A program made the position numbers and the translations under genes. Below are positions 7,275 to 16,462 of a stretch of DNA of 64,000 nt, in pieces. This DNA comes from Bacteroidota bacterium (GTDB taxonomy: Bacteria; Bacteroidota; Ignavibacteria; Ignavibacteriales; Ignavibacteriaceae): the NCBI GenBank assembly GCA_021815365.1, contig JAKAGZ010000006.1, forward strand, positions 1-64,000. The letters are read 5' to 3'. Position 1 is the first letter of the stretch. Each line of letters begins with the position of its first letter. The notes below the pieces were generated by a model. It was not told the DNA's origin. It saw only the letters and a list, made by a program, of their open reading frames with translations, and ran no database searches.

Positions 7275-7325
7275 GCATTAGGGTAACAGAAGGAGGGCAT
7301 AGCCCAACGGGAGTTACCCTAATGC
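7275..7325. repeat. 13-bp perfect inverted repeat inside the IS remnant
   Basis: GCATTAGGGTAAC (7275-7287) pairs with GTTACCCTAATGC (7313-7325). The loop contains GGAGGGC/GCCC words. The last codons and stop of the truncated transposase frame lie in the right arm, so this hairpin marks the junction where the rest of the transposase gene was lost. Confidence 0.65.
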
Positions 7326-7574
7326 TGAACGCAAAAAATTCCTCCTCCTATCATCTTTTAGCCTTTGATTCATCTTTCTGAAAGGATGATCTTTTGAAGG
7401 CTTAATTATTTTTAAGCCTTCATCTCTTATTCTCTTTAGCACTCTATAGGTATGCCTCTGTGATAACCCTATTAGCTCAGAAGCTTCTTCTACTGTCAGT
7501 TTCTTTTTTCCCACTTGTTTTATAACCGATATTCTTTTGGCTTCTTTTTGACTCATTGTCAGTATTCCTTCCAT
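7314..7574 (-). pseudogene. Transposase N-terminal fragment (ISNCY/IS1202-like HTH)
   Basis: 86 residues. MSQKEAKRISVIKQV followed by KKLTVEEASELIGLSQRHTYRVLKRIRDEG is the typical start of ISNCY-type transposases: a helix-turn-helix that binds the element ends. Full-length relatives continue for about 300-400 more residues with a DDE catalytic domain, which is absent; the frame stops in a hairpin. The likely original start is the ATG at 7556. It sits inside the terminal repeats at 7231-7635. Confidence 0.75.
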
Positions 7575-7751: not shown

Positions 7752-7782
7752 TTGACATTATAAAAATTTAAAATTAGATTTG
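7752..7782 (+). promoter_or_regulatory. trp operon promoter
   Basis: TTGACA (7752-7757), a 17-bp spacer and TAGATTTG (7775-7782). The latter is an exact match to the TAnnTTTG element of Bacteroidota promoters. It stands 10 bp before the leader-peptide ATG, so the transcript would begin almost at that codon. Confidence 0.6.
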
Positions 7783-7792
7783 AACCAAAATT

Positions 7793-7876
7793 ATGAAGAA
7801 CTTAGCTGAGACATATAACAATTCAAAAACTTTTGCCTCTTTTAATTGGTGGTGGAGGAATAGATTTATTATATGA
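7793..7876 (+). CDS. trpL: trp operon leader peptide with three consecutive Trp codons
   Basis: A 27-codon frame beginning MKNLAETYNN and containing SFNWWWRNR: TGG-TGG-TGG at 7847-7855, ending in TGA at 7874-7876. Trp is the rarest residue in proteins, and three in a row 100 bp before trpE is diagnostic of an attenuation leader. A ribosome short of charged tRNA-Trp would stall on these codons. The stop codon lies immediately before one strand of the antiterminator, so normal completion would mask it. It is too short for automatic gene callers. Confidence 0.85.
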   Translation: MKNLAETYNNSKTFASFNWWWRNRFII

Positions 7877-7950
7877 CTCAGTTATTTTGAGAAAATAAGT
7901 TTATACAACTAAGAAACCCCTCTCAACAACTGAGAGGGGTTTTTTGTTTT
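7877..7950 (+). promoter_or_regulatory. trp attenuator: antiterminator strand plus terminator hairpin
   Basis: The terminator is a 12-bp perfect stem, AAACCCCTCTCA (7914-7925) with TGAGAGGGGTTT (7931-7942), a 5-nt loop and a T-run to 7950. The upstream segment CTCAGTT (7877-7883) is exactly complementary to AACTGAG (7928-7934), which covers the loop and the base of the terminator's right arm, so the two structures exclude each other. With Trp present, a ribosome at the leader stop (7874-7876) covers CTCAGTT and the terminator forms. With Trp scarce, stalling at 7847-7855 frees it and trpE is transcribed. Confidence 0.8.
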
Positions 7951-7960
7951 ATAGGAAAAT

Positions 7961-9457
7961 ATGGATTTCGAAGAATTTAAAATATTATCTAAATCTTATA
8001 GCCTGATCCCTGTTTATGAGATTATCACAGCAGACCTGCTAACTCCTGTAACAGCTTATCTTAAAATAAGAGAAAAAGGAAAGCTTAGTTTCCTTCTTGA
8101 GTCAGTAGAAGGCTCTGCAAGCATGGCGAGGTATTCATTTATTGGCTGCGACCCGTACAAAATTATTTTTAACAGAGGAACAAATATTACTGTAGTTACA
8201 AACGGTAATGAACAAAACTATAATGAATCTGTTTTTGATTTTGTAAGAAGAGAATTAAAGCAATACAAGCAGCCCGCAATTGAAGCTCTCCCGGATTTTA
8301 AAGGAGGGCTGGTGGGATATCTCGGCTATGAAAATATTTCTCTGATTGAAAAGGTTATAAAATTTAATAATAAAAATTCCGGCAACCCTGATTCTGTCTT
8401 TGGGCTTTATAATACTATACTTGCTTTTGATCACTATAAACACCGGATAATTTTGATAAGTAATTTGAGAATAGACAAAGAAATTAAATTAGAGCAGTTG
8501 TACGAAAGAGCTAAATCAGAGATTTCTGTTCTTAAAAAGAAACTAAAATCTGAAGCAGATTTAATTAGTGGATTTAAAATCGAAAACACCTTCGCTGACA
8601 ACATTGATGAGAATGATTTTTTCAGCCAGGTAAATAAAGCAAAACGGGATATTGAAGAGGGTGAAATTTTCCAGCTTGTTTTATCTAAAAGATTCTGTGC
8701 AGAGTTTTCAGGCGATCCTTTTAACGTTTACCGGGCATTGAGAATAATAAATCCATCACCTTATATGTATTACCTTGAACTCAACTGCGGGTCAGGCGGT
8801 CTTATAAATGATTTTAAAGTAATTGGTTCATCGCCTGAGGATCTGCTGAAAGTGAAAAACCGAAAGGCTCAGGTTCTGCCGATAGCAGGTACAAGGAAAA
8901 GAGGGGCGACTCCTGAAGAAGAAAAAAAACTTGAGAATGATTTGCGGAGTGATCCGAAAGAACAGGCAGAACACACAATGCTTGTTGACCTTGGAAGGAA
9001 TGATCTCGGCAGGGTCTGCAGGTATGGCTCTGTTAAAGTTACAAAGAAAATGAGAATACAAAAATATTCGCACGTGATTCACCTTGTTTCAAAAGTTGAG
9101 GGAACTCTTGCAGATGATAAAGATTCGATAGATGCGCTTATGTCCTGTTTCCCCGCAGGGACAGTTACAGGTGCGCCAAAGATAAGAGCAATCCAGCTAA
9201 TTGAGCAAAGTGAAAAAGTGCAAAGGAATATTTACGCCGGTGCCGTAGGCTATTTTGATTTTTCAGGAAATCTTGATATGTGCATAGCAATCAGAACTCT
9301 TTTTACTTCAGGTAATAAAATATTCTGGCAGGCAGGAGCCGGCATAGTTGCCGACAGCAAGCCGGAACTTGAGTCGAAAGAAATAAAAAATAAATCAGCC
9401 GCTATGGTAAGTGCATTGAAATATGCTGAGGAGATAAATGAAAATTCTGGTAATTGA
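7961..9457 (+). CDS. trpE: Anthranilate synthase component I
   Basis: Converts chorismate and ammonia (or glutamine via TrpG) to anthranilate, the first committed Trp step. 498 residues, normal length. The N-terminal domain holds the LLES element (FLLESVEGSASMARYSF) that forms the Trp feedback site. The chorismate-binding domain shows EIFQLVLSKRF, PAGTVTGAPKIRA and the C-terminal GAGIVADSKPE. AGGAAA precedes the ATG, which follows the attenuator by 11 bp. It overlaps trpG by 20 bp, consistent with translational coupling of the two subunits. Confidence 0.97.
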   Translation: MDFEEFKILSKSYSLIPVYEIITADLLTPVTAYLKIREKGKLSFLLESVEGSASMARYSFIGCDPYKIIFNRGTNITVVTNGNEQNYNESVFDFVRRELKQYKQPAIEALPDFKGGLVGYLGYENISLIEKVIKFNNKNSGNPDSVFGLYNTILAFDHYKHRIILISNLRIDKEIKLEQLYERAKSEISVLKKKLKSEADLISGFKIENTFADNIDENDFFSQVNKAKRDIEEGEIFQLVLSKRFCAEFSGDPFNVYRALRIINPSPYMYYLELNCGSGGLINDFKVIGSSPEDLLKVKNRKAQVLPIAGTRKRGATPEEEKKLENDLRSDPKEQAEHTMLVDLGRNDLGRVCRYGSVKVTKKMRIQKYSHVIHLVSKVEGTLADDKDSIDALMSCFPAGTVTGAPKIRAIQLIEQSEKVQRNIYAGAVGYFDFSGNLDMCIAIRTLFTSGNKIFWQAGAGIVADSKPELESKEIKNKSAAMVSALKYAEEINENSGN

Positions 9458-10004
9458 TAACTATGATTCATTTACATACAACCTGGTACAGTTACTTGGG
9501 AGGTATAAGAATGATCTCATCATTAAAAGAAATGATGAAATTACACCGGAAGAAATTTCCAGATTGAATCCGGAAAAAATTCTTATTTCACCGGGTCCCG
9601 GCAGACCTGAAGACTCAAAGATATCTTTAACAGTTATTAAAGATTTCGGCGGAGAAATTCCCGTTCTTGGTGTCTGCCTCGGGCACCAGGTTATCGGAAT
9701 GATTTACGGCGGAAAGGTTATCAAAGCACCGGTGCTTATGCACGGAAAAGTTTCTGAAATTTTGCACGATAGTAAAACGATCTTCAAAAATGTACCGCAG
9801 AAGTTTATTGCTACGAGGTATCATTCACTTATAGTGGAAAGAAAATCTGTACCGCCGGAGCTGGAAATCTCTGCTGAAACCAGTGACGGAATTGTAATGG
9901 GACTCAGGCATAAAAAATATCCGGTTGAAGGGATTCAATTTCATCCCGAATCTATTCTTACTTCCGAAGGTGAATCAATAATAAAAAACTGGCTGAAGTT
10001 ATGA
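9438..10004 (+). CDS. trpG: Anthranilate synthase component II (glutamine amidotransferase)
   Basis: Class I glutamine amidotransferase that supplies ammonia to TrpE. 188 residues. The catalytic triad is visible: Cys80 in GVCLGHQ, and His/Glu in QFHPES near residue 168. The oxyanion motif ISPGPGRPED lies near 50-59. It starts inside the end of trpE and overlaps trpD by 4 bp (ATGA). Amidotransferases of this group sometimes also serve p-aminobenzoate synthesis (PabA), which cannot be excluded. Confidence 0.96.
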   Translation: MKILVIDNYDSFTYNLVQLLGRYKNDLIIKRNDEITPEEISRLNPEKILISPGPGRPEDSKISLTVIKDFGGEIPVLGVCLGHQVIGMIYGGKVIKAPVLMHGKVSEILHDSKTIFKNVPQKFIATRYHSLIVERKSVPPELEISAETSDGIVMGLRHKKYPVEGIQFHPESILTSEGESIIKNWLKL

Positions 10005-11029
10005 ACGTTTCTGTTAAAAGTCTTATAGAAAAATTAATTGAAAAAAATGATCTCTCATTTAACGAGGCTTATGAATTGATGTGCAGTATTATGCGCGGCG
10101 AAGTGAGCGATCCTAATATTTCGGCGGTTTTAGTTTCTCTGAAAATCAAAGGTGAAACCCCGCAGGAGATTGCAGGCTTCGCAAAGGCGATGAGAGATAA
10201 TTGCATTAAAATTAATTGCGATCAGCAAACAACCATTGATGTCTGCGGCACCGGAGGAGATAATTCAGGAAGTTTTAATATTTCGACTGCAGTTGCTTTT
10301 ACCGTTGCAGGCGCAGGCATTAGAGTTGCAAAGCATGGCAACCGTTCGATATCCAGCAAGAGCGGCAGCGCTGATGTTCTTCAGGAACTTGGTGTGAATA
10401 TTAATATTACACCTCAGCAATCTGAAGAAGCTCTTGATAAGATCGGCATTGCCTTTCTCTTCGCTCCCGTTTTTCATCCTGCAATGAAACACGCTGCAAA
10501 TGTCAGAAAAGAACTTGGCATAAAAACTGTTTTTAATATGCTGGGACCTCTTACAAATCCTGCCGGAGTTAAAAAGCAAATGATCGGAGCTTTTAACAGG
10601 CACGCAGCAAAGCGGATGGCAGCAGCCGCAGAATACCTCGATTACGAAAAAGTTTGCTTCCTCTGCAGCGATGATAAATACGATGAAATTTTCCCCGGCA
10701 ATTCTACCGATATTTTTGAATATGAAAACGATAAAAAAATTAACAGCTACACGATAACAGGCGAAACTTTTGGTTATCCACCTGCAATTCACGATGAAAT
10801 AAAAGGAAACACTCCCGTAGAAAATGCAAAGATCATTTACGATGTTTTTACCGGCAAAAGAAAAGGCGGGGCTTTTACTACAATAGCAGCCAACTCTGCG
10901 CTTGCTTTATATTGTGCCGGCTTTTCAAAAGATCTGATGACCTGCAAAGATGCAGCAGAAGTTTCGATAAACAGCGGTGCCGCCTTAAAAAAAATTGAAC
11001 TGCTGAAAAATTACAGCATGGCTTGTTAA
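10001..11029 (+). CDS. trpD: Anthranilate phosphoribosyltransferase
   Basis: Joins anthranilate to PRPP. 342 residues, standard length. The PRPP loop GTGGDNSGSFNIST and the following KHGNRSISSKSGSADVLQELG segment are intact, as is the N-terminal helical domain (EAYELMCSIMRGEV). It overlaps trpG by 4 bp. A separate protein, not fused to TrpG as in enterobacteria. Confidence 0.96.
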   Translation: MNVSVKSLIEKLIEKNDLSFNEAYELMCSIMRGEVSDPNISAVLVSLKIKGETPQEIAGFAKAMRDNCIKINCDQQTTIDVCGTGGDNSGSFNISTAVAFTVAGAGIRVAKHGNRSISSKSGSADVLQELGVNINITPQQSEEALDKIGIAFLFAPVFHPAMKHAANVRKELGIKTVFNMLGPLTNPAGVKKQMIGAFNRHAAKRMAAAAEYLDYEKVCFLCSDDKYDEIFPGNSTDIFEYENDKKINSYTITGETFGYPPAIHDEIKGNTPVENAKIIYDVFTGKRKGGAFTTIAANSALALYCAGFSKDLMTCKDAAEVSINSGAALKKIELLKNYSMAC

Positions 11030-11043
11030 TAAAGGGTTTTAAT

Positions 11044-11844
11044 ATGAGCATCCTGGATAAAATACTTGAAAGCAAAAAAGAAGAAATAAAAAATCTTAAA
11101 AAGAAATTTTCAGCTTCTTCTTTCGAAGGTATGGAACTTTTCAGTGGACATAAAATCAGTTTTATCGAAAGGACGAAAAACAATAAAAGTATTTCGCTCA
11201 TCTGTGAAATTAAAAAAGCAAGCCCATCAAAAGGAATTATAAGGAACGATTTCAACTACAGGCAAGTTGCAGAAATTTATTTCAGGAACGATATTGAAGC
11301 TGTCTCTGTGCTTACTGATAAAATCTTTTTTCAGGGCGATATAATTTACCTGAGAGAAATTGCTGAAAATAAAAAAGCACCCCTGCTGAGGAAGGATTTT
11401 ATCATAGATGAACTCCAGGTTTATGAATCAAAAGCTAACGGCGCTGATCTGATCCTGTTGATAAGTGAAGTGTTATCAAAAACACAGATCAATGAGTTTA
11501 CAGATATTGCAAACAGGATCGGGCTTGATGTTCTTTTAGAGGTCCATTCTGAAGATCAGCTTGAGAAAATTAATTTTGATATGAATTACCTGATTGGTAT
11601 TAACAACAGGAATTTAAAAGATTTCTCAGTTTCTCTCGGGACTACAAGCCGGTTAAGGAAATTAATTCCTCCAAATGTTTTTGTAGTCTCTGAAAGCGGG
11701 ATCTCTAATCATGCAGACGTTTTATTCCTCAAGAATACGGGTGTAAATGCCTTGCTTGTTGGAGAGTCTATTATGACAGAAAAAGGAATCGAAAATAAAA
11801 TTCGTGAATTTAAAAAATGGTGCAGCAGCACCGAAGGTGTGTAA
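11044..11844 (+). CDS. trpC: Indole-3-glycerol phosphate synthase
   Basis: Closes the indole ring from CdRP. A (beta/alpha)8 barrel of about 266 residues. The N-terminal helix ILDKILESKKEEI, the catalytic-Lys region CEIKKASPSKGII, RKDFIIDELQV and the phosphate site SESGISNHADV are present. The ATG at 11044 (preceded by AAAGGGTTTTAAT) gives the standard N terminus. The upstream ATG at 11023 would lie within the end of trpD and add seven residues. TrpC and TrpF are separate proteins here. Confidence 0.95.
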   Translation: MSILDKILESKKEEIKNLKKKFSASSFEGMELFSGHKISFIERTKNNKSISLICEIKKASPSKGIIRNDFNYRQVAEIYFRNDIEAVSVLTDKIFFQGDIIYLREIAENKKAPLLRKDFIIDELQVYESKANGADLILLISEVLSKTQINEFTDIANRIGLDVLLEVHSEDQLEKINFDMNYLIGINNRNLKDFSVSLGTTSRLRKLIPPNVFVVSESGISNHADVLFLKNTGVNALLVGESIMTEKGIENKIREFKKWCSSTEGV

Positions 11845-11846
11845 AA

Positions 11847-12464
11847 ATGAAAGTTAAAATTTGCGGTATTACAAATTACAAAGACGCTCTGCTCTGCCAG
11901 GATTATGGCGCAGATGCTATAGGCTTTATTTTTTATCCGAAGAGTAAAAGATATATTACGCCGGCAAAAGCAGCATTGATCATCAATCGTCTCTCACCGT
12001 TCATTGTTAAGGTCGGCATCTTTGTCAATGCAAAGCTTTCATTCGTAAATGAAACGGCTGAATTGACCCGCATAAATATCGTGCAGCTTCACGGCGATGA
12101 AGATGAAAATTATTATGCCGGAATAAACCTGCCGGTAATTAAAAGCTTCCGCGTAAAAGATAATTTTGATTTCAGGGAAGTTTATAAATATAAAAAGGTC
12201 GGCTATTTGTTAGATTCATATTCAGATAACAGCTACGGCGGAACAGGTAAAAAATTTAATTGGGATTTGATCCCGGATTATCTTAAAGATAAAATAATTC
12301 TTTCCGGAGGTGTCAGCGAAAAAAATATTGAATACATATTTCATTCAATAAATCCTGCTGCTGTTGATCTTTCATCTTCTCTCGAAAGCAGGCCGGGCAA
12401 AAAGGATGAAAAAAAAGTAAAAGCATTTTTTAAGAAAGTAAACAAGCTGAGGTATTTATGCTAA
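11847..12464 (+). CDS. trpF: Phosphoribosylanthranilate isomerase
   Basis: Isomerises PRA to CdRP. About 205 residues. The signature KICGITNYKDAL with the catalytic Cys is at the N terminus, IGFIFYPKSKRYITP follows, then VQLHGDED, and the phosphate-binding LSGGVSEKNIEYI is near the C terminus. The ATG at 11847 yields exactly MKVKICGIT; an ATG at 11817 would start within trpC. Overlaps the DAHP synthase gene by 7 bp. Confidence 0.95.
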   Translation: MKVKICGITNYKDALLCQDYGADAIGFIFYPKSKRYITPAKAALIINRLSPFIVKVGIFVNAKLSFVNETAELTRINIVQLHGDEDENYYAGINLPVIKSFRVKDNFDFREVYKYKKVGYLLDSYSDNSYGGTGKKFNWDLIPDYLKDKIILSGGVSEKNIEYIFHSINPAAVDLSSSLESRPGKKDEKKVKAFFKKVNKLRYLC

Positions 12465-13483
12465 TATTGATGGGGCTGAATACGCCGAGAGAGGACATTG
12501 AAAAAGTAAAGCAGAAAATAATTTCAAAAAATTGTACACCGCATGAAATTCCCGGTTCATCAAAGCTTGCGATAGGCATAACCGGTCCTTCAAACAATTT
12601 AAATGAAGAGGATTTTTTATTAATGGAATCAGTAGAAGAAGTAGTTCGTATTACCAAACAATATAAGCTTGTCAGCCGCGAAATGAAGCCGGAAGACACA
12701 ATAATTAATATCGGTAAAGAAAAAATTGGTGGAGAAGAACTCACTATTATTGCAGGTCCCTGTTCTGTTGAAAGCCGTGAACAGCTTTTTGAAGTCGCAG
12801 GTCAGCTTAAAGAAATAGGAATAAATTTTTTGAGGGCAGGTGCTTATAAACCCAGAACGAGCCCATATTCTTTCCAGGGATTAAAAGAAAAAGGGCTTGA
12901 ATTTCTGAATGAAGTAAAAAAAGAACTTGGAATGATAATAGTTACAGAAGTAAAAGATACACAGACTCTGCCGCTGATTTTTGAAGTCGCAGATGTAATT
13001 CAGATTGGCGCGCGCAATATGCAGAATTTTTCTCTGCTCGAACAAGCCGGACGGCTTTCAAAAACAATTTTACTTAAGAGAGGTCTGGCTGCTACGGTTG
13101 AAGACCTTTTAATGAGCGCAGAGTATATTCTTTCCCAGGGGAATTATAATGTCATTCTTTGTGAACGCGGAATAAGAACTTTTGAAACAAGCACAAGAAA
13201 CACGCTCGATCTTAACGCTATCCCCGTCATAAAAAAGAATACGCATCTGCCTGTTATTGTTGATCCTTCACACGGAATTGGAATGTGGGATAAGGTTTCA
13301 CCGATGGCAATGGCTTCAGTAGCCTGCGGCGCCGATGGGTTAATGATTGAAGTGCACAGTCACCCAGAGCAGGCTTTGTCGGATGGATTCCAGTCGTTAA
13401 CACCGGAAAATTTTAAAAAGTTATTAATTAAATTAAAACAATTAGCACCTGTTGTTGATAAAAAGGTAAAGCTCAATGTATAA
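12458..13483 (+). CDS. aroF: 3-deoxy-7-phosphoheptulonate (DAHP) synthase
   Basis: Condenses PEP and erythrose-4-phosphate, the first step of the shikimate pathway. 341 residues: an N-terminal ferredoxin-like regulatory domain (about 1-70, starting [17 protein letters not shown]), then a type I-beta barrel. Barrel motifs are [39 protein letters not shown] and [14 protein letters not shown] (metal and PEP/phosphate ligands). Its place between trpF and trpB puts pathway entry under the trp attenuator. Overlaps both neighbours by 7-8 bp. Confidence 0.93.
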
Positions 13484-14675
13484 TCCAATCAAATATAATT
13501 TGCCTGATAAGGATGGAAAGTTTGGCAGGTACGGCGGAAAGTTCGTACCGGAAACACTTATCACTCCGTTGCAGGAATTGGAGAGAACCTATCTCGGATT
13601 AAAAAACAATCCTCGTTTTCTTTCTGAGCTTAATAAGCTGAACAGAGAATATTCGGGAAGACCTACTCCGCTGACTTTTGCGGAGAATCTTACAAAATAT
13701 TTCGGTAAAGCAAAGATCTATCTTAAGCGCGAAGATCTTTGCCACACCGGCGCTCACAAAATCAATAATGCGCTTGGACAAATCCTGCTTGCCCTGAGGC
13801 TTGGCAAAAAAAGAATTATTGCTGAAACCGGTGCAGGGCAGCACGGTGTTGCGACTGCTACTGTTTGTGCAAAATTTGGATTGAAGTGTGTTGTGTATAT
13901 GGGCGAAGTTGATATCGAAAGACAAAAACCAAATGTGTTCAGAATGAAATTGCTTGGTGCAGAAGTTGTTCCTGTTAAATCCGGCAGCCGGACTCTTAAA
14001 GATGCAGGCAATGAAGCTATCCGTGACTGGGTAACAAATGTTAAAGACACTCATTACATAATTGGTTCTGTGGTCGGTCCGCATCCATACCCGATGATGG
14101 TGAGAGATTTTCAATCCGTTATCGGAACAGAAACAAAAGAACAGATATTAATACTTGAAAAAAAACTCCCGGATTTTATCATTGCCTGCGTTGGCGGCGG
14201 CAGCAATGCTATCGGAATTTTTTATCCGTTCATTGATGATGATGTGCAGCTAATTGGAGTTGAAGCTGCGGGACTGGGGCTGGATACAGACAAGCACAGT
14301 GCAACGCTGACTCTGGGAAGGGAAGGAATCTTTCAGGGAATGATGAGTTATCTGCTGCAAAGCAAAGAAGGACAAATTTCGGAAGTGCATTCCATTTCTG
14401 CGGGACTCGATTATCCCGGCGTTGGTCCTGAACACAGCTACCTGAAAGATATTTCGAAAGCCAAATATTTTTCAGTTACAGATGAAGAAGCATTGAACGG
14501 CACAAAACTGCTTTCAAGACTCGAAGGAATAATCCCTGCTCTTGAAACTGCTCATGCAGTTGCCGGGATTGAAAAAATAATTCCTGAAACAAATAAGGAA
14601 CAGGTAATTATAATAAATATCAGCGGCAGGGGAGATAAAGATCTGGATACGATTAGAAAGAATGCAGGCTTGTAA
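13476..14675 (+). CDS. trpB: Tryptophan synthase beta subunit
   Basis: PLP enzyme joining indole and serine. 399 residues, standard TrpB1 length. The PLP lysine lies in [13 protein letters not shown] near residue 93. [20 protein letters not shown], the phosphate loop GGGSNAIG and GPEHSYL are all present. The start overlaps the DAHP synthase stop by 8 bp. The alpha-subunit gene is not adjacent: 1 kb with an MNT/HEPN module intervenes. Confidence 0.97.
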
Positions 14676-14803: not shown

Positions 14804-15238
14804 GTGAAAATTCAGTACGAAAGCAAAAATCTTTTAATAGAAAAGGTGTCTGATATAATTAGATACAAAGAGGATATTGAATTTGCTTATATCTTTGGTT
14901 CCTTTGCTTTAGTGGAAAGAGATCATCTAAATAGAAATGATTTTAATGATGTTGACATTGCGGTGTATCTTTCTAAAGATAAAGTTGAAAATATTCTCTC
15001 CTTTGAAATGGAAACAGAAGCACAGCTTGAAGAACTTTTTCATCTCCCGTTTGATGTAAGAGTTATTAATGAGGCACCCTTATCTTTTCGGTTTAATGTA
15101 ATAAAATCCGGCATCGTAATTTTGGATAAGAATAAATCACTGAGAACTGATTTTGAAGGATTGACATTGAAGGAATATTTTGATTTTGTACATTTGAGAA
15201 ATGAGTATTTGAGGGAAATAATAAATGCCCCTGTTTAA
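14804..15238 (+). CDS. MNT-type minimal nucleotidyltransferase (antitoxin-like)
   Basis: 144 residues with the nucleotidyltransferase core AYIFGSFALVERD … NDFNDVDIAVYLS, i.e. a GSF motif and a D-x-D metal pair, plus a second acidic strand FDVRVINE. In MntA/HepT systems such proteins modify the HEPN partner RNase and neutralise it; here the partner gene follows with a 14-bp overlap but is broken. GTG start with AAGGAG five bases upstream. It lies inside the trp operon between trpB and trpA. Confidence 0.8.
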   Translation: MKIQYESKNLLIEKVSDIIRYKEDIEFAYIFGSFALVERDHLNRNDFNDVDIAVYLSKDKVENILSFEMETEAQLEELFHLPFDVRVINEAPLSFRFNVIKSGIVILDKNKSLRTDFEGLTLKEYFDFVHLRNEYLREIINAPV

Positions 15239-15639
15239 TTCAGATAAAATTGCCAAGTTAATTTCTGAAATGCGTAAAGCATTTGAGCGCTTGCAAATTT
15301 TAAGCTCAAGTGAAAAGAACAAATTTCTGGAAAACCTGGACAGGGTTGACAGCGCAAAATATAACTTTATCGTTGCAATCGAGTCGGCTATAGGCATTTG
15401 TAACCATAAAATGGCTTCAGGATACCGGAGAATTACGGAGATGCTTTTCAGGTTTTGTTTGAACAAGGTGCTTTTGATTCTGAATTTATAAAAAATCTAA
15501 AACGATGGCAAAATTCAGAAACAGATTAGTTCATATTTATTGAGAGGTAAACAACGAACAGATTTATGACTTTCTCCAAAATAATCTGAAAGATTTCAAA
15601 ACTTTCCTGAATAAAATTTCAGAATATCTGCGGCTATAA
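15225..15639 (+). pseudogene. HEPN-domain toxin gene (hepT-like), inactivated by two frameshifts and a nonsense codon
   Basis: The intact first part (DRVDSAKYNFIVAIESAIGICNHKMASGY) is a typical HEPN helix pair. After about 15423 the sequence continues in another frame as PENYGDAFQVLFEQGAFDSE, and after about 15504 in a third as MAKFRNRLVHIY, which holds the Rx4H catalytic motif. The Trp codon expected after HIY is TGA (15541-15543). Downstream EQIYDFLQNNLKDF reaches a stop at 15637-15639. Each frameshift is explained by a 1-bp loss. The toxin should be non-functional, while its nucleotidyltransferase partner remains open. Confidence 0.85.
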
Positions 15640-15676: not shown

Positions 15677-16462
15677 ATGCTTCCTATTTCAGATTTTATA
15701 AAGGGAAAAAATAGTGAGGGCAAAAAAGTGCTCTCTGTTTTTTTGACCAGCGGATTCCCCGACCCAAAAAGTTTTACCGAACTTGCATTAAAAATTCTGG
15801 ATGCCGGAGCGGATATGTTAGAGATTGGTTTTCCTTTCAGCGATCCCTTAGCTGATGGTCCTGTTATTCAGCACTCATCGAATACAGCGCTGCAGAAAGG
15901 AATAAACCTTGAAAAGACTTTTGGATATGTAAAACAGATCAGGGAGAAAACCGAAAAGCCATTAATACTTATGGGATATGCAAATCCTGTGATGAGTTAC
16001 GGAATAAAAAAATTTGCCGAAGACTGTAAATCTTCCGGTGTTGACGGGCTGATAATTCCTGACGTACCCCTTGAAGAATATGAAAGTTTCTTTACACCCG
16101 ATTTTAATGGATTGGAAAAAATTCTTCTTATAAGTCCAACTACAAATGATGAAAGGATAAGGTTAACTGATGATAAAAGCAGCGGGTTTGTTTATTGCGT
16201 AAGTGTTAGCGGAACCACAGGAAATGAGAAAGCAGAAAAGGATATTGAGTTCATTGAACATAGCCGTTCTATCTTAAAAAAGAATAAGATGCTTGTTGGT
16301 TTTGGAATTTCATCTGAAGAGGACGTTAGAAAATATTCTCCATTCTGCGATGGTGTGATAGTTGGCAGTGCTGTTATCAAATCACTGATGGAAGACGATG
16401 ACACAACTGAAGCTGTGAAAAGGACACTGAACCTTGTTAAGAGATTGAAAGCAGCTCTTTGA
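15677..16462 (+). CDS. trpA: Tryptophan synthase alpha subunit
   Basis: Cleaves indole-3-glycerol phosphate and channels indole to TrpB. 261 residues. The catalytic Glu is in MLEIGFPFSDPLADGPVIQ and the catalytic Asp in GLIIPDVPLEEYE. The phosphate site GFGISSEEDV and VGSAVIKSL are present. It is last in the trp operon and separated from trpB by the MNT/HEPN module. No clear terminator follows; the histidine kinase gene converges from the right. Confidence 0.95.
   Translation: MLPISDFIKGKNSEGKKVLSVFLTSGFPDPKSFTELALKILDAGADMLEIGFPFSDPLADGPVIQHSSNTALQKGINLEKTFGYVKQIREKTEKPLILMGYANPVMSYGIKKFAEDCKSSGVDGLIIPDVPLEEYESFFTPDFNGLEKILLISPTTNDERIRLTDDKSSGFVYCVSVSGTTGNEKAEKDIEFIEHSRSILKKNKMLVGFGISSEEDVRKYSPFCDGVIVGSAVIKSLMEDDDTTEAVKRTLNLVKRLKAAL

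Follow-up and report, generated by a model that had tools for sequence, protein, structure and literature searches.

A predicted leader-peptide transcription attenuator upstream of the trp-aroF operon in an Ignavibacteriaceae bacterium and its relatives

The trp-aroF locus and its leader region

The window, meaning the whole stretch of 64,000 nucleotides that was analysed, carries on its plus strand a set of tryptophan biosynthesis genes that were named by NCBIfam families, each over its cut-off: trpE (7961-9457; TIGR00564), trpG (9438-10004; TIGR00566), trpD (10001-11029; TIGR01245), trpC (11044-11844; NF001377), trpF (11844-12464; NF002298), a DAHP synthase gene of the aroF type with a ferredoxin-like domain (12458-13483; NF006421 and TIGR01361, with PF00793 and PF18152), trpB (13476-14675; TIGR00263) and trpA (15677-16462; TIGR00262). 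From trpE through trpB, the genes overlap or are separated by gaps of <20 nt. The interval between trpB and trpA holds an mntA-hepT pair (14804-15491), in which the mntA antitoxin gene is intact and the hepT-like gene is frameshifted. A scan of the stretch found no terminator-like site between trpB and trpA, and trpA may therefore still be read from the same promoter. These assignments agree with the expectation, in a preliminary description of the sequence, that an attenuator would front the whole trp pathway plus a DAHP synthase.

A TTGACA box (7752-7757, plus strand; -33/-35 box) was located upstream of trpE by sequence and consensus scan. It is followed, after a spacer of 17 nt, by TAGATTTG (7775-7782), which from its sequence and from near matches in relatives is better read as a -7 box of the Bacteroidota type TAnnTTTG than as a -10 box; the promoter of the preliminary description was thus retained in its first half and re-read in its second. 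TTGA-type boxes lie 5' of most homologous leaders, and TAnnTTTG or a near match ends 4-13 nt 5' of the leader ATG in most of the 42 trpE loci collected from the host and its relatives (see below). The TAnnTTTG box of Flavobacterium psychrophilum covers -12 to -5, according to PMC9723704, which would place the transcription start of the window near 7787 and give a 5' UTR of ~6 nt. Since the gap between box and ATG is 4-13 nt in most relatives, the near-5' position of the start codon appears to be conserved, and the earlier estimate that the leader starts about 5 nt from the transcript end is backed by this gap, the 5' end itself being a predicted one. That leader start codons would lie almost at predicted transcript 5' ends is a new point. 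Divergent from the trp promoter, on the minus strand (7314-7574), an 86-aa HTH protein is encoded that is like the N-terminal part of IS481-type transposases.

The leader peptide ORF, MKNLAETYNNSKTFASFNWWWRNRFII (7793-7876, plus strand), has homologous leaders in relatives and comprises 27 codons, with a TGA stop at 7874-7876. Its three Trp codons (TGG x3, 7847-7855), which are invariant or nearly so in the family alignment, form the presumed ribosome stalling site. ORF, Trp run and stop all lie where they had been described, and the predicted translation product is a short peptide with a run of residues corresponding to the product of the operon.

An intrinsic terminator (7911-7945) lies between the leader and the first structural gene, with a left arm, C, at 7911-7925, a loop at 7926-7930, a right arm, D, at 7931-7945 and a U-run at 7940-7945. 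The 12-bp stem with T-run noted previously was recovered at 7914-7925/7931-7942, and it extends to 7911/7945 to give 15 bp (-22.1 kcal/mol). Segment B1 (CTCAGTT, 7877-7883), the 5' strand of the antiterminator, adjoins the leader stop codon and is complementary, as already reported, to AACTGAG at 7928-7934, which spans the loop and the first part of the right arm; both strands were assigned from pairing and covariation. Segment B2 (TTGAGA, 7887-7892) was assigned from folding, with weaker comparative support, and pairs with TCTCAA (7921-7926), the end of the left arm plus the first loop base, lengthening the antiterminator to 13 bp (-10.9 kcal/mol). Segment A (7803-7818; leader codons 4-9), the anti-antiterminator strand identified by folding and covariation, pairs with 7869-7884 in a stem of 8 bp plus 7 bp (7803-7810/7877-7884 and 7812-7818/7869-7875). 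This A:B stem, which resembles a 1:2 stem in competing with the antiterminator, is compatible with the terminator, while B:CD is incompatible with both. The preliminary description had regarded the device as reduced to one mutually exclusive pair; that was wrong, since the covarying A:B stem and the second antiterminator helix (7887-7892/7921-7926) make it a full multi-segment attenuator. The leader region of 163 nt folds at z = -5.7 relative to shuffles. The window's own B:D pairing is only 7 bp long, and it is not significant against shuffles by duplex energy alone (p 0.08) and significant as a contiguous helix (p 0.01).

Conservation and covariation in the Ignavibacteriales

Using the window TrpE as query, 42 trpE loci were collected from 59 genomes, those of the host and its relatives, and a Trp-rich leader together with a terminator was present 5' of trpE at all 42. 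The same arrangement was found in 3 further genomes of the order and in five named records (Bacteroidetes, Ignavibacteriales and Ignavibacteriaceae MAGs), with TrpE identities to the named relatives of 64-68%; on the basis of these relatives, the host was taken as belonging to the Ignavibacteriales. ORFs started by ATG, of 15-45 codons, with at least 2 Trp codons and at most 250 nt from trpE, occurred at 41/42 loci and in 245/4200 shuffles; when Trp-Trp was required, the counts were 37/42 and 17/4200. At one locus (L005), a foreign-looking, repeat-like insert of ~200 nt lies between terminator and trpE. One match of the R1 searches (L169) was rejected as a leader, being a plain terminator without one.

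Across the 42 trpE loci, the leader peptides are 20-32 residues long and variable at the C-terminus, and the Trp run comprises 2 to 5 codons. The only residues that the peptides have in common are those of the Trp cluster and, close to the N-terminus, a T-Y that is lineage-specific. A short Trp-rich peptide 5' of Trp-related genes could also point to TnaC-like arrest, in which the nascent peptide itself would stall the ribosome on sensing free Trp; however, no conserved sequence of the TnaC kind was found in peptides whose length, C-terminus and Trp run all vary, and induction by Trp would be senseless for biosynthetic genes. We consider arrest of this type very improbable.

Control by another known Trp device, with the short ORF incidental, was weighed in the same way. 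TrpR, TRAP and T-box elements regulate trp operons in other phyla, but none was above cut-off in the host genome while controls scored, and the Trp ORF is present at 42/42 loci. TrpR (PF01371) was not found over cut-off in any of 21 genomes (host plus 20 relatives), T-box (RF00230) exceeded its gathering score in 0/21, and a gene for TRAP (PF02081) was not found in the host genome; such control is barely credible here. An Rfam scan of the window returned no family over threshold. Trp_leader (RF00513) reached 16.2 bits against a gathering score of 41, and His_leader (28.8 bits against 49) was dismissed as a weak, terminator-driven match.

The B:D helix was supported by a z of 20 relative to shuffled B across the 42 loci, and at 36/42 loci the own D paired better than the D of other species. 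This statistic counts related loci separately, and a rerun without near-duplicates gave the same result. Named structures were then tallied on alignment A1, which comprises 15 members of the window's family, as RNAalifold on the family alignment recovered the terminator alone, which is accounted for by A:B and B:D being mutually exclusive and competing helices being penalised. On A1, the antiterminator (B:D/B2:C) had 85% of cells paired and 6 double-changed pairs, with a covariation score reached by 0/500 shuffles; A:B had 82% of cells paired and 7 double-changed pairs, and the terminator had 96% of cells paired. A:B, B:CD and the terminator each carried double compensatory changes, exceeded every shuffle in covariation score and also lay above all slid controls. 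B2:C alone, with 77% of cells paired and z values of 4.7-5.5, was found in only part of the relatives. Exchanged pairs among relatives include CTCAGT/ACTGAG, CCCAGT/ACTGGG, CCAAGTGA/TCACTTGG and CCCGGTGAAT/ATTCACCGGG, and the A:B stem is kept in the other two families with wholly different sequence (for example, 16 bp in L013). Conservation of the Trp run and of the pairing in relatives, on which the preliminary description had staked its reading, was thus found within the order, together with compensatory changes.

Ribosome position, folding and the proposed mechanism

For each of the 42 loci, folding was computed on the RNA 3' of the leading edge of the ribosome, at lengths that expose 5-8 nt of the right arm. 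When the A site was occupied by the last Trp codon, the mean terminator probability was 0.12; when it was occupied by the stop codon, the value was 0.80, compared with 0.57 without a ribosome and 0.68 for a stalled ribosome with shuffled spacer. Stalling lowered the terminator probability by >0.1 at 38/42 loci, a count to be read with the provisos that at L008 the last Trp codon adjoins the stop, which makes its 'last Trp' state uninformative, and that at L039 the automatic finder chose a short hairpin, so that the values for this locus are unreliable.

In the window, B1:D at the decision length had a probability of 0.97 for a ribosome whose A site is at the third Trp codon and of 0 for one at the stop codon, and changing B1 in silico restored the terminator; the antiterminator is mutually exclusive with the terminator and is exposed or hidden, in silico, according to ribosome position. 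The result was robust over masking lengths of 10-16 nt; only a stall at the first Trp codon, combined with short masking, left a narrower antiterminator window. The antiterminator was dominant only while the emerged RNA ended at ~7932-7936, which corresponds roughly to polymerase at the U-run, and the fully extruded terminator was more stable than the antiterminator in every ribosome state. Antitermination must therefore be kinetic, with a narrow favourable window. Kinetic control is usual for attenuators.

The greater strength of the terminator at full length would also suit a fixed partial terminator that follows a small gene and is unregulated, with the pairings arising by chance. Against this stand the covariation of three helices (A:B, B:D and the terminator) and the shuffled-spacer control, and we regard a fixed terminator as highly unlikely.

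The locus is best explained, with high confidence, by ribosome-mediated (leader-peptide) attenuation of transcription into the trp-aroF operon. The elements of such an attenuator are present and conserved, three of its helices covary and its folding in silico depends on the state of the ribosome; the conserved Trp run and the covarying pairing lend support, in silico, to the earlier proposal that Trp leader-peptide attenuation operates here.

Ribosome stalling, the sequence of steps and the Trp response would then be as follows. Transcription would start near 7787 and leave ~6 nt of RNA before the leader ATG, for an almost leaderless translation. If Trp-tRNA is plentiful, the ribosome would reach the stop codon and cover B (7877-7892), or A would pair with B after release; by either route the terminator (7911-7945) would form and transcription would end before trpE. 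With scarce Trp-tRNA, the ribosome would stall on 7847-7855 and cut A (7803-7824) off from B, leaving B free. Given the position of A, 5' of the Trp codons, the stalled ribosome would occlude it sterically rather than by direct coverage. Free B2 would pair with TCTCAA (7921-7926) and B1 with AACTGAG (7928-7934) as both leave RNA polymerase, the terminator would be unable to close in the time that polymerase spends on the U-run, and transcription would go on through trpEGDCF-aroF-BA.

Captured arm, related leaders and known systems

In the E. coli trp attenuator, the antiterminator holds the 5' arm of the terminator, which is the textbook layout. In the Ignavibacteriales, the antiterminator would engage mainly the loop and 3' arm: B is complementary to loop plus right arm with z 15.7 and to the left arm with z 3.3, and duplex energy favours loop plus right arm at 39/42 loci. 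Raw comparison of duplex energies between arms is biased by base composition, and shuffled controls were added for this reason. Outside the order, 16 leaders of the class and phylum show a B that matches the left arm by complementarity (z 11.2) and not the right (z -2.0), with duplex energies in agreement, as in GCAGTGGGCTG/CGGCCCACTGC of L112 and GACCGGTGGGCG/CGCCCACCGGTC of L121; families f20 and f23 (n=4) were assigned to neither arm. This reversal of the captured arm, read from sequence complementarity, is the main new point, and the preliminary description does not remark on it.

The window also has a 6-bp contact of the antiterminator with the terminator 5' arm, and a ribosome-mediated attenuator of textbook geometry, in which B2 and the 5' arm (TTGAGA/TCTCAA) are functional and B1:D is secondary, has points in its favour. 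This 6-bp B2:C pairing comes earlier than B1:D in transcription order and forms first in the ensemble, and pairing of B with the left arm is what prevails elsewhere in the phylum sample. However, the arm preference within the order is the opposite by both measures, many relatives that have long B:D helices lack B2:C, and B2:C formed to the same extent whether the ribosome was at the stop codon or not present at all, so that it cannot by itself discriminate Trp states. The textbook geometry is accordingly judged unlikely, and capture of mainly the loop and 3' arm is preferred.

Trp leaders were also recognised by eye, as a Trp-rich ORF plus terminator, at 10/37 trpE loci sampled from the class beyond this order and, likewise by eye, at 12/20 trpE loci from the wider phylum, among which L118 and L122 were weaker; at leaderless loci, trpE mostly lies inside another gene context. 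The leaders elsewhere in the phylum sample (L052, L067, L082, L109-L126) are like that of the window in having a WWW leader, a terminator, a near-5' start and trpE next, and unlike it in that B pairs with the 5' arm.

R1 searches and codon-run patterns served to look for further leaders. A second putative attenuator in the host genome consists of a His-rich leader, MTTKRTHIAHHHHNRISSAGMC (L172, G000:C98:19500-22500, at 377-445), with a TATGTTTG promoter and a terminator, directly 5' of hisG (from 511), and G018 has a His-rich leader 5' of hisG. The R1 search of the host genome, with E up to 10, gave no other convincing leader, the next match (0.012) being an ordinary terminator, and other TGGTGGTGG sites in that genome were rejected as leaders.

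Several leaders of other composition were encountered. L166 (G044:C46:53000-54600, minus strand) has a leader, MKTMNSTYYFNFTWSFYGFSRFYICPWILVN, that is rich in Tyr, Phe and Trp and lies 5' of a stand-alone DAHP synthase; it is possibly one attenuator sensing all three aromatic amino acids. Cys-rich leaders with terminators (SCCCTPANMMSSEVFV; MCLCAVGCCKTSAEVFV) were seen at L171 (G043:C19:114300-116200, minus strand), where the leader precedes a cysK-like gene, and at L170 (G017:C12), and the two have a common C-terminus, SSEVFV/TSAEVFV. At L167 (G002:C390:7700-9600), a WWWW leader and terminator lie 5' of a TrpB2-like gene in a genome, G002, with no trpE match, a candidate for Trp control of possible indole salvage.

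A motif, ACATAT (7811-7816, plus strand; CATAT at +19 from the leader ATG), is conserved and in the window's family forms part of segment A. CATAT was counted in 26/40 leaders of the order, against a shuffled mean of 3.3 and a maximum of 9, and in every case stands at +16 or +19 relative to the leader ATG. CATAY was counted in 12/20 leaders elsewhere, against a shuffled mean of 3.8 and a maximum of 8, with nearly all cases at +16 to +19; on inspection, the two his leaders and the aroF leader have it at +18 or +19. CATAT joins A:B in the window's family, and its pairing partner is missing elsewhere. As the reading frame of CATAY differs between clades and its position stays, a nucleic-acid signal such as a polymerase pause may be suspected, which we offer as speculation.

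Ribosome-mediated attenuation is classical, and the window has in common with the E. coli trp attenuator (trpL; RF00513) a short leader with tandem Trp codons, a 1:2-like stem, an antiterminator, an intrinsic terminator and trpE as first gene. It differs in that segment A lies upstream of the Trp codons and not over them, in an antiterminator mainly on the terminator loop and 3' arm, in its near-leaderless start, in its Bacteroidota promoter and in the presence of aroF in the operon. A 2010 study (PMC2965389) held that leader-peptide systems had not been shown outside Proteobacteria and Actinobacteria and added Firmicutes; the working principle of those attenuators is common to the window. In Bacteroides thetaiotaomicron, short ORFs reminiscent of leaders have been described (PMC7366714). 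For F. psychrophilum, the main text of PMC9723704 gives strong clues for leader-peptide attenuation 5' of amino-acid operons, in the same broad phylum group and with the same TAnnTTTG promoter; that main text leaves trp unnamed, the helices undescribed and the Ignavibacteriales untreated. No paper on Ignavibacteriales was found in the open literature that was searched, and the Lopatovskaya 2010 survey may list some Bacteroidota cases.

A wider reading, towards which we lean slightly less than against, is that the Ignavibacteriales inverted an ancestral attenuator, with B mimicking the 5' arm and capturing loop plus 3' arm where the phylum elsewhere captures the 5' arm, and that a CATAY signal ~24 nt into the RNA, independent of reading frame, is common to trp, his and aroF leaders, where it may be a polymerase pause by which a first ribosome is loaded on an almost leaderless message. 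With start codons so close to the 5' end, it may be asked how that first ribosome stays abreast of polymerase. The two related groups have Trp codons as sensor and a terminator as output in common and capture opposite arms, and would amount to a natural experiment in the design of attenuators. Capture of the 3' arm has to beat a hairpin whose arms are neighbours, which makes the order of cotranscriptional folding and loop-nucleated strand capture directly testable. Control of trp by ribosome position is indicated as widespread in a large phylum with little-studied RNA regulation.
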